Assembly (NCBI RefSeq): GCF_002019705.1
Contig: NZ_KV917377.1
Coordinates: forward strand, 556,565-620,564
Direction: 5' to 3'
Length of the DNA stretch: 64,000 nucleotides
Source: Shouchella patagoniensis
Lineage (GTDB): Bacteria > Bacillota > Bacilli > Bacillales > Bacillaceae_D
Position numbers and translations under genes: made by a program. Positions within the stretch are counted from its first letter, which is position 1. Each line of letters begins with the position of its first letter. The notes beneath the pieces are model-generated. The model was not told the origin of the DNA and made no database searches. It was given only the letters and a program-made list of their open reading frames with translations. Positions 5,852-60,888 of the stretch are shown piece after piece.

Positions 5852-6202
5852 TTATCCTTTTGGTTTAAAAGCAAGAGAAGCTAAAAAACCAAAAATAATG
5901 GCTGCAGATATACCTGCGCTCGTAATCTCAAAAATCCCTGTGATGATCCCAATTAAACCAACTTGTGCTGCTTCTTCCATCGCGCCTTGCACGAGGGAAT
6001 GGCCAAAGCTCGTAATTGGTACGGTTGCTCCCGCTCCTGCAAAATCAACAAGCGGTTCATACAATCCAAATCCGCTTAATACCGCCCCACTAACTACCAA
6101 TGTAGCCATCGTATGTGCAGGTGTTAGCTTACCAACATCCATTAAAAGCTGTCCAATTACGCAAATTGCCCCACCAATAAGAAAGGCCCATAGAAAAATC
6201 AT
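5852..6202 (-). CDS. spoVAEB: Stage V sporulation protein AE (SpoVAEB-type), accessory operon copy
   Basis: Small hydrophobic protein of 116 residues with three to four membrane helices and the family signatures [12 protein letters not shown] and [15 protein letters not shown]. SpoVAC and SpoVAEB are thought to form the membrane part of the dipicolinate channel. The ATG overlaps the end of spoVAD by four bases. A close paralogue in the main spoVA operon lies at 46633-46986. No spoVAEA or spoVAF follows here, unlike the main operon. Confidence 0.9.
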
Positions 6203-7216: not shown

Positions 7217-7687
7217 TTAAATTACACCTGCCTTTATCAACAAAGTTTTCACCAGTGCAATAATAAAAGCAGCGACAGTCCCAAATACAATGACAGAACC
7301 AGCGAGCTTAAACATATTACCGCCGACTCCTAACACATAACCTTCTGTACGATGCTCAATTGCTGCCGATGCAATCGAATTTGCAAATCCAGTAACTGGG
7401 ACAGCGGTGCCTGCACCGGCAACTTGTGCAATTCGATCATAAAAACCAAGCCCTGTAAAAAGTGTTGCAATAAAAATTAAAACTGCCACAGTAGGATTTC
7501 CAGCTGTTTTCTCAGTAAAATCAAAATACGTGTAAAAAAAGACGTTTAAACATTGACCCAATGTACATACGAGTCCTCCAATAACAAAAGCATATAGACA
7601 ATTTTTCAGAACGGGACGCTTTTTTTCGTATGTACTAGCAAGGTTCTGATAGTCTTTTTGAGCAGCTGTCGGCTGTTTCTTTGCCAT
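7217..7687 (-). CDS. spoVAC: Stage V sporulation protein AC, accessory operon copy
   Basis: 156-residue membrane protein; SpoVAC behaves as a mechanosensitive channel component for dipicolinate release. Helices are visible near residues 30-52, 68-88 and 125-150, with the conserved GAGTAVPVTGFANSIASAAIEH stretch in the middle. SD AGGAGG precedes ATG 7687. It lies 13 bases after the YhcN-like gene and is followed directly by spoVAD. The paralogue is at 48012-48470. Confidence 0.91.
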   Translation of the reverse strand: MAKKQPTAAQKDYQNLASTYEKKRPVLKNCLYAFVIGGLVCTLGQCLNVFFYTYFDFTEKTAGNPTVAVLIFIATLFTGLGFYDRIAQVAGAGTAVPVTGFANSIASAAIEHRTEGYVLGVGGNMFKLAGSVIVFGTVAAFIIALVKTLLIKAGVI

Positions 7688-21464: not shown

Positions 21465-21552
21465 ATAGTAAATAAACGTAGCCTAGTACATGCTTACGAA
21501 TTTTTGCGCAACACAAATAAGCTAACGTTAGCTCACTTTCAAATTGCGACTT

Positions 21553-21688
21553 AACTTCTCCCATCCAGACTGTCACTGTCGGCTCTGGAATTTCACCAGA
21601 TCCACCGGAGCAAAAAATGCTACGGGTCACGGACTAAAAGGCACTTGCCTTATCACCGCCGGTCGGGATTTTCACCCGGCCCCGAAGT
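21553..21688 (-). promoter_or_regulatory. FMN riboswitch (RFN element)
   Basis: All conserved RFN segments occur in order on the minus strand: CTTCGGGGC.GGGTGAAATCCC-type opening, ACCGGCGGTGATAAGGC, AGTCCGTGACCCG, GGTGGATCTGGTGAAATTCC and the closing GACAGTCTGGATGGGAGAAG. It binds FMN and switches the downstream terminator at 21429-21464, turning the rib operon off when flavin is plentiful. Confidence 0.97.
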
Positions 21689-21890
21689 TAACTGTATTCA
21701 ATTGTTTGTATCAGTTTGTTACCTTAATAACCTAAACCCTTGATATAACAGCGTTTAGTTTCAGTTAATTATATTGAAGTGTTACCTTTAATACCCTACC
21801 AAAACTTTAAATTACCTTTAGTTTCTTACCAAAAGAATTGAACCACTGATAAGTTGCTACTTTCAAGTTAAAAACAATGTATCATTGCCA

Positions 21891-26626: not shown

Positions 26627-26957
26627 CCGTTTTACAATCCACACATACAAAAACCTTCCTCATATAGAGAAAGGTTTGGATTTATTCTTATATCTTCTTG
26701 TTCCGTTAGAAGAGATGCGAAAGCAAACTCTATGGAATTTCTTGTTTACAAGACAACGAAAGCCCTACCTCTCATTCGTCCTTACGGCTCCGAAGCCGCG
26801 CCAGTATGAATTGCATCGACAAAAAGTCTTCTTCCTGCTTAACGTTAGGGACGTTCGTTTAAGTGTGAGGAATTGTTGGAAGCGTATTGCTTCTTTAGGG
26901 GCAGAAAAAAGAAGTTCACTTTCGAATAAGTCTTTATTATAACGAACAAATCATCAG
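26627..26957. other. Intergenic, no supported gene
   Basis: An open frame covers most of this stretch on the plus strand, but it has no SD, an unusual Arg/Lys/Leu-rich product and overlaps the preceding gene. I do not support it as a gene. Somewhat higher GC than the flanks. Confidence 0.5.
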
Positions 26958-48470: not shown

Positions 48471-48500
48471 GTAAAACCTCCACACTTTAATCTCTTGTTG

Positions 48501-48529
48501 TAGTATGCAACATTAGATTTTGTTCATTC
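48501..48529 (-). promoter_or_regulatory. Sigma-G promoter of the main spoVA operon
   Basis: Minus strand GAATG, 17 bases, CATACTA: full agreement with the sigma-G elements GHATR and CATWHTA. It places spoVAC-AD-AEB-AEA-AF expression in the forespore, as known for spoVA. Confidence 0.7.
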
Positions 48530-48539
48530 GTCCAACGAC

Positions 48540-48575
48540 AAAAAAGAACTCATTCTTGCAAAAAGAGTTCTTTTA
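48540..48575 (-). terminator. Terminator insulating spoVA from upstream transcription
   Basis: Stem AAAAGAACTC / GAGTTCTTTT with a 13-base loop and TTTTTT on the minus strand, directly upstream of the spoVA promoter. It would stop read-through from sigF. Confidence 0.7.
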
Positions 48576-48633
48576 AGACTTTATCTGCTCAATTACTCGA
48601 TAAAAATTTTTTAACTATTAGTATAACTTCATG

Positions 48634-48663
48634 TTGACAGGTCTTTTTGCCCAAGCCTATAAT
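48634..48663 (+). promoter_or_regulatory. Consensus sigma-A promoter on the plus strand
   Basis: TTGACA (48634-48639), 18 bases, TATAAT (48658-48663): both hexamers are perfect. No gene lies downstream on this strand before a strong terminator, so it should drive a non-coding transcript. Confidence 0.75.
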
Positions 48664-48669
48664 ATGTAT

Positions 48670-48845
48670 ACATCCTTCGTTTTGACTCCTCAGGTGGTAT
48701 ACCCACTTACCACGATATTTCATTACATCTGTATTCCACCTGTATTGCAAAGCAAGAACCTCCGCACCACATAATCTTCGTTTTCATTCCTCGACAAAGA
48801 AGCAAGCTCTTCTCTGTCCCCTAGAGATGAGCTTGCTTTTTATGT
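48670..48845 (+). ncRNA. Putative stand-alone small RNA (about 175 nt)
   Basis: A perfect sigma-A promoter ends at 48663 and a strong terminator fills 48800-48845: about 15 paired bases (AAGCAAGCTC.TCTCT / AGAGA.GAGCTTGCTT) then TTTTTAT. There is no SD-preceded frame in between. Two alternative stems share the same bases: CAGGTGG (48691-48697) with CCACCTG (48736-48742), or GTGGTA (48694-48699) with TACCAC (48708-48713). A C-rich stretch AACCTCCGCACCAC (48757-48770) resembles an anti-SD seed. It is encoded in the sigF-spoVAC gap, where B. subtilis has spoVAA/spoVAB. No known RNA family recognised. Confidence 0.6.
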
Positions 48846-49606
48846 TATGGCGCATCCGACATCGTTTCTTTCATCTGCTCTAGAATTTTTTTCTCAAGCC
48901 GCGACACTTGCACTTGAGAAATACCTAAACGTTCAGCCACTTCTGATTGGGTTTGATCCTTGTAATACCTAAGGTAGACAATTAAACGTTCACGTTCTTC
49001 CAAATCCCTAATTGCTTCTTTTAACGCTATTTTATCAAACCATTTCACTTGTGTATGATCTGCAATTTGATCCAATAATGTAATGGGATCACCATCGTTT
49101 TCATACACCGTCTCATGAATAGAAGACAAACTCCGATTTGCGTCACCAGCAAAGACAACTTCTTCAGGCGTCACACCTAAATGTTCAGCGATCTCATTCA
49201 CAGTTGGTGTTCTTCGCAATTCTTTTGTTAATTCGTCTTTTGATTTGCGAATTTTGTTACTTAATTCTTTAATTGAGCGACTAACTTTCACAGTACCGTC
49301 ATCCCGTAGAAAGCGTTGGATCTCACCAATAATCATTGGAACGGCATAGGTTGAAAACTTCACATCATAAGACAAATCAAATTTATCAACAGACTTAATT
49401 AACCCAATGCATCCAATTTGAAATAAATCATCAGCTTCATAACCACGATTCATAAAACGTTGAACGACTGACCATACAAGCCGAGTATTTTTGTTGACAA
49501 TTAAATCTCTTGCTTCAGTGTCACCGTTTTGACTCTCAGCAATTAAACGCTTCACTTCATTATCTGACAATGTTTTTTTATTGGTCTTTTTCACCTCTGC
49601 GCTCAT
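48845..49606 (-). CDS. sigF: RNA polymerase sporulation sigma factor SigF
   Basis: 253 residues. Region 2 contains NTRLVWSVVQRF and YEADDLFQIGCIGLIKSVDKFD; region 3 VKVSRSIKEL; region 4 has the HTH RYYKDQTQSEVAERLGISQV. It is the first compartment-specific sigma factor of the forespore, held inactive by SpoIIAB. It lies 13 bases after spoIIAB. The adjoining terminator at 48800-48842 is usable on this strand too. Confidence 0.96.
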   Translation of the reverse strand: MSAEVKKTNKKTLSDNEVKRLIAESQNGDTEARDLIVNKNTRLVWSVVQRFMNRGYEADDLFQIGCIGLIKSVDKFDLSYDVKFSTYAVPMIIGEIQRFLRDDGTVKVSRSIKELSNKIRKSKDELTKELRRTPTVNEIAEHLGVTPEEVVFAGDANRSLSSIHETVYENDGDPITLLDQIADHTQVKWFDKIALKEAIRDLEERERLIVYLRYYKDQTQSEVAERLGISQVQVSRLEKKILEQMKETMSDAP

Positions 49607-54423: not shown

Positions 54424-54513
54424 TCAAAAACCTTCTTTTTTTTCAACTTGTTTAAGTTATTTAATTATATCGATCCGCTTTCTTGTTTGTCAAAATCTTT
54501 GTTTCGCCTCACG

Positions 54514-60803: not shown

Positions 60804-60888
60804 AACGTCCTCCCTTATCCACAAGCGATCTATTGATTCTCATTATAGGATGCAGGAAAACAGTTGTCAATTAATAATTATTATTAAC

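Follow-up and report, generated by a model that had tools for sequence, protein, structure and literature searches.

The gap between spoVAC and sigF of Shouchella patagoniensis, which belongs to the 64,000-nucleotide stretch of DNA analysed here (hereinafter, the window), very probably harbors a genuine, so far undescribed small RNA gene, judging by its sequence features. An undescribed stand-alone small RNA at this site was the original prediction, and this still appears to be the best reading of the locus. As to function, we favor, with considerably less assurance, an RNA that would act in trans by pairing with the Shine-Dalgarno (SD) regions of messenger RNAs (mRNAs), because the block UCCUCAGGUGG is conserved, has a distant partner, CCACCUG, and is accompanied by C-rich stretches that are predicted to be unpaired. 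If this is correct, a well-delimited small RNA is added to the genus of the probiotic S. clausii, and the strong promoter, the 11-base invariant block and the existence of natural carriers and non-carriers would allow its targets to be sought by comparison or deletion. In broader terms, the C-rich RNAs confined to a single lineage would gain one more example, from a group in which RoxS is not detected.

Promoter, terminator and coding potential

The sigF-spoVAC gap was compared in 13 Shouchella genomes (G000 to G012), where G000 is the 4.65 Mb source genome. By its SigF protein, G000 is a member of this genus: the closest SigF sequences in named records come from S. tritolerans, S. clausii and S. 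rhizosphaerae (92%) and from S. shacheensis (89%). The perfect sigma-A-type promoter that had been claimed on the plus strand is indeed exact (TTGACA at 48634-48639 and TATAAT at 48658-48663, separated by 18 bases), and both neighbors, spoVAC (PF03862) and sigF, read from the minus strand, as had also been stated; so do the genes around them, namely, spoVAD and those of the SpoVAE and GerA/SpoVAF types beyond, and two of the spoIIA type before. Exact sites of the TTGACA-18-TATAAT type number 16 genome-wide vs 5 for a backwards-read control pattern, and the window has three such sites where 200 first-order Markov sequences predict 0.09, the other two being located at 54464-54493 and 60842-60870, both on the minus strand. 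Near the presumed start on the plus strand of G000, sigma-A signals match without mismatches and sigma-G signals with four, and the best sigma-F match, with two mismatches, lies far upstream of the start (all by general consensus sequences). The long terminator with a T-run is present as described, and the folding energy of the stretch, terminator included, is far below that of shuffled sequences (z -6.9).

The claimed lack of an SD-preceded frame holds as well: the promoter is followed by about 130 nucleotides with no plausible plus-strand frame before the terminator, in the presumed RNA of the seven genomes examined there is no plus-strand frame of at least 10 codons with an SD-like motif, and comparison across deep genome pairs found no conserved frame. 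SD-preceded frames do occur on the minus strand in every genome scanned, beginning with M[LF][EK]EDPPEEAERRCYRKYTV in the clausii group (G009, G004 and G010) and forming a 53-codon-type frame shared by G000 and G006, so that one might think of a short protein encoded on either strand, with the RNA features as by-products. Nevertheless, we consider this hardly tenable: no plus-strand frame was found, the conserved block is read in different registers by the minus-strand frames in G000, in the clausii group and in G002, and the differences between G000 and G006 within the minus-strand frame mostly alter amino acids (the latter two judged by eye).

Distribution in Shouchella and beyond

The unit consisting of promoter, RNA and terminator is recognizable by sequence in seven of the 13 genomes (G000, G006, G009, G011, G004, G010 and G002), and the invariant 11-mer and its partner arm likewise recur in seven. 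Four further records, L033-L036, also carry the unit; they appear identical to G011, G004, G009 and G002 and were not counted twice. A gap of only about 126-157 bases separates the matches to sigF and spoVAC in G001, G003, G012, G008 and G005, and no trace of the unit is visible there. The same gap of G007, a 2.6 Mb genome (L013:987-1286), contains TTGACC-18-TATAAT, a C-rich stretch and a hairpin; the likeness of this RNA to the others is at shuffle level (z -1.0, 1.1 and -0.1), so it could be either a strongly diverged copy or an independent RNA, and G007 was not included among the carriers above. Loss of the promoter and the pairing in relatives, by which the prediction was to be judged, thus gives a divided answer: the promoter and the 48691-48697/48736-48742 pair are kept in seven of 13 genomes, absent from five, and represented by a look-alike only in G007.

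The missing units are what one would expect if a chance promoter had arisen next to the sigF terminator and no functional RNA existed. Given that exact promoters are rare, and that in deep pairs the promoter and the RNA are more alike than the adjoining DNA, we regard this explanation as highly improbable. Specifically, when G002 is aligned with G000 or with G004, the promoter stretch (z 6.0 and 2.6, respectively) and the RNA (3.8 and 5.5) exceed shuffled sequences, which the 100 upstream bases do not (-0.2 and 0.2). In a tree constructed from SigF and SpoVAC only (404 columns), G002 branches first and the other twelve genomes are grouped with support of 95/93. Carriers are therefore found on both sides of the deepest split of the genus, which suggests that the unit is most simply ancestral to Shouchella and was later lost once or twice. 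The tree requires two carrier/non-carrier label changes if G007 is a carrier or unscored, and three if it is a non-carrier; the non-carrier clade itself is weakly supported (76/67). In G010, an insertion with a 162-codon frame, which we take to be IS200-like, separates the RNA body from the terminator (L008:2260-3060); the body is intact up to CCCCTAGACAAA, and the RNA may end at a hairpin with a weak T-run at the insertion edge. The Rfam family STnc490, annotated as 'Hfq binding RNA', scores 48.3 bits on this insertion (cut-off 56), which hints that the family may overlap insertion-sequence ends.

Outside the genus, no copy was found within the genomes searched. When a model (R1) built from six carrier sequences was run on 41 family genomes, seven strong matches resulted, namely, the six model sequences and G011, which scored equal to G004; of its 12 weak matches (E 0.0088-0.78), the ten inspected (all except L127 and L131) lack the combination of CAGGTGG and CCACCTG at the matching site. 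Among the matches listed when 397 genomes of the order were searched with strict filters and an E cut-off of 0.01 (22 of 397 rows), only G000 and the weak G023 match already obtained in the family appeared; no other carrier could have been in this sample. The locus has no hit in Rfam that attains the gathering score of a family, and the best sub-threshold hits (48480-48860, E 0.34-4) look like chance; the terminator of S. shacheensis gives a sub-threshold hit to Thr_leader (35.9 bits vs a cut-off of 55). Within the collection of papers searched, queries on Shouchella and Bacillus clausii revealed no described small RNA (B. clausii works judged by their titles), and those combining sigF, spoVAC and small RNAs gave only works on C. 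difficile and B. anthracis, likewise by title.

Predicted fold and possible mode of action

Across six aligned rows, TCCTCAGGTGG and CCACCTG are identical letter for letter. The CAGGUGG/CCACCUG helix would enclose 38-52 nucleotides, with a mean predicted pairing probability of 0.81-1.00 in five of the six rows and 0.17 in G006, and the UCCUC that forms one edge of the invariant block, the presumed seed, has a mean predicted unpaired probability of 0.63-0.80. Upstream of the terminator, the RNA contains 12-15% G and 60-70% pyrimidines in these rows, with 2-4 copies of UCCUC per row vs 0.31-0.78 in base shuffles; this count is reached by at most 5% of the shuffles in five rows and by 8% in G010 (the rows are related and the values uncorrected). 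Copies of CCCCU or CCUCC are additionally present in all six rows and, like the C-rich motifs in general (mean 0.63-1.00), are predicted to be mostly unpaired. Unpaired C-rich stretches, a feature of trans-acting RNAs that pair with SD sequences, are predicted here. The more specific proposal of an anti-SD seed in the C-rich strand 48757-48770 stands insofar as this segment is predicted to be unpaired, and fails as a general feature in that the CCUCC within it is shared at this position only with G006. Similarly, the two mutually exclusive folds that had been put forward both exist on paper (48691-48697/48736-48742 or 48694-48698/48709-48713) but are not conserved. In G000, the long-range pair is favored over the local hairpin by 4.4 kcal/mol (-46.1 vs -41.7); the arm of the local hairpin is absent from the clausii group and G002, and a genus-wide two-state switch is therefore excluded. 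A switch of this kind may be a peculiarity of one species pair, G000 and its nearest relative G006.

Taken together, these features could be accommodated by a simple scheme. An RNA of about 170 nucleotides would be transcribed from the sigma-A-type promoter and terminated by the 3' hairpin; the predicted helix would present the seed, and the pyrimidine-rich stretches, that is, the UCCUC at the block edge and the further UCCUC, CCUCC and CCCCU motifs, would pair with SD regions and block translation of the mRNAs of other genes. We infer that such an RNA resembles RoxS in its mode of action and not by common descent. RoxS, FsrA and CsfG are described as C-rich RNAs of B. subtilis (PMC8216469), and the C-rich regions of the RsaE/RoxS family as able to pair with SD sequences (PMC4409812). 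The candidate shares with RoxS/RsaE the stand-alone organization and several C-rich regions of this kind (PMC4409812) but has a different sequence; the respective family, RF01820, matches none of the 13 Shouchella genomes, this locus included (the B. subtilis control was positive). The likeness to FsrA, which uses C-rich regions on mRNA targets, and to CsfG, a C-rich RNA of an endospore former, is one of description (PMC8216469). FsrA is Fur-regulated; at the promoters of the carriers, the best Fur-box matches in the seven units have 3-5 mismatches of 14 (three in G004 and G010), and a search for Fur, PerR, Zur, cre, CodY, Spo0A and Rex operators found no common site in a common place (general consensus sequences throughout). 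A relative of CsfG would be expected to have a sigma-F or sigma-G promoter; the promoter here is of the sigma-A type, exact or near-exact, and matches sigma-F or sigma-G signals more poorly, again by general consensus. 6S RNA (RF00013) is also a stand-alone, sigma-A-era RNA of similar length; its matches, present in all 13 genomes, lie elsewhere.

Two other functions have to be weighed against SD pairing. First, the RNA might act in cis, as an antisense to sigF read-through RNA that prevents transcription of spoIIA from running on into spoVA. Transcripts that continue beyond the sigF hairpin on the minus strand would indeed be complementary to the RNA, and minus-strand terminators flank it on both sides in G004, G011 and G010 according to the scan. 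The 48796-48841 hairpin, read on the minus strand, may end the sigF RNA; there, the scan has hits in G009, G011, G004, G010, G007 and G002 and none in G000, and on the spoVAC side, it lists G006, G011, G004 and G010, again not G000, so that the full pair was not found in G000, G006, G009, G002 or G007. The five RNA-less genomes, moreover, make do with a short gap that has a single minus-strand terminator and lack this antisense, from which it follows that cis antisense is dispensable, and antisense pairing alone would not hold the 11-base block and its partner invariant; we deem this function unlikely. Second, UCCUCAGGUGG/CCACCUG could be a binding site instead of an mRNA seed, in an RNA that binds a protein or serves as a sponge. 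This would fit the fact that only the 11-mer and its partner are kept without a single change, with a complement common to no target, and since 6S RNA, a protein binder, is encoded elsewhere in every genome, a protein-binding RNA here would be of another kind. The several additional unpaired C-rich stretches suit SD pairing better, however, and we give the binding-site alternative a rather low probability. Returning to SD pairing, its boldest version, an old global riboregulator, born in the genus and equipped with several anti-SD seeds, that took over the network role of RoxS/RsaE and is neutralized, once cells sporulate, by antisense transcripts that run on from sigF, seems to us a very long shot.

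Several observations count against an SD-pairing RNA. The unit is missing from five of the 13 genomes, and the upstream DNA of G000 and G004 is also somewhat alike (z 2.3, compared with 4.3 for the RNA and only 2.6 for the promoter). The helix is unproven by covariation because none of its seven pairs varies among the six rows, and G006 favors a local hairpin instead. The C-rich motifs outside the invariant block shift their place between species, which makes it less plausible that every one of them is a seed, and the UCCUC enrichment is weak in G000 taken singly (0.05). Finally, no convincing target emerged, exact complements of the 11-mer not being common between species. A search for CCACCTGAGGA in six carriers recovered the RNA gene itself in each, plus four further hits, of which G002 has three and G004 one. 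The pattern CCTGAGGA-N3..13-ATG yielded 38 matches in three genomes, of which two or three are the RNA gene; among the 30 with inspected loci, only rsbV (G000) and a 262-codon frame (G002) reach 100 codons with no more than 11 open codons preceding the ATG, and matches with frames of at least 50 codons show no likeness between genomes. In G000, nine bases of the invariant block find their complement in the SD region of rsbV (L149:1180-1525, minus strand), a weak match. The gene was found in 12 of 13 Shouchella genomes (all but G007), and its site reads CCTGAGGAGG in G000 and G006, CTTGAGGAGG in G009, G010, G011 and G004, and TTTTGAGGGG in G002. This match is mostly a plain SD sequence, and TGAGGAGG is kept in four of five non-carriers, so that rsbV is only a candidate for an experimental list.

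Neighborhood and other elements of the window

Table 1. Features of the spoVAC-sigF gap (window coordinates)
Feature	Positions	Strand	Remarks
Sigma-G-like promoter of spoVAC	48501..48530	-	Two mismatches to a general consensus
Hairpin and T-run, apparent terminator ahead of spoVAC	48541..48574	-	Sequence reading and fold
Sigma-A-type promoter TTGACA-18-TATAAT	48634..48663	+	Exact match; same place, spacing 17-18, in 7/13 Shouchella genomes
Presumed non-coding RNA, about 172 nucleotides	48670..48841	+	Start guessed from promoter position
Invariant block UCCUCAGGUGG	48687..48697	+	Same in six aligned rows; UCCUC, presumed seed; CAGGUGG, 5' arm of helix
CCACCUG, 3' arm of long-range helix	48736..48742	+	Same in six aligned rows
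CCUCC, predicted unpaired	48759..48763	+	At this place common only to G006; inside the anti-SD segment proposed earlier
Second UCCUC, predicted unpaired	48788..48792	+	Fold prediction
Terminator hairpin and T-run	48796..48841	+	Just past the sigF stop

The RNA had also been said to occupy the place of spoVAA and spoVAB, which is correct by position only. The SpoVAA domain (PF12164) is absent from the whole genomes of all 13 Shouchella, carriers and non-carriers alike, and present in 16 of 28 other genomes of the family; a replacement of spoVAA by the RNA is accordingly unsupported. The window apparently contains a second spoVA-type cluster, with a second SpoVAC-like gene at 7238-7654 on the minus strand (35% identity) and a further SpoVAC-family match at about 5882-6199. 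Other RNA elements in the window are a flavin mononucleotide (FMN) riboswitch on the minus strand (21549-21693, 115.8 bits) and, on the plus strand, a strong match to BsrC, a small RNA family of Rfam (26745-26829, 82.4 bits vs a cut-off of 38).
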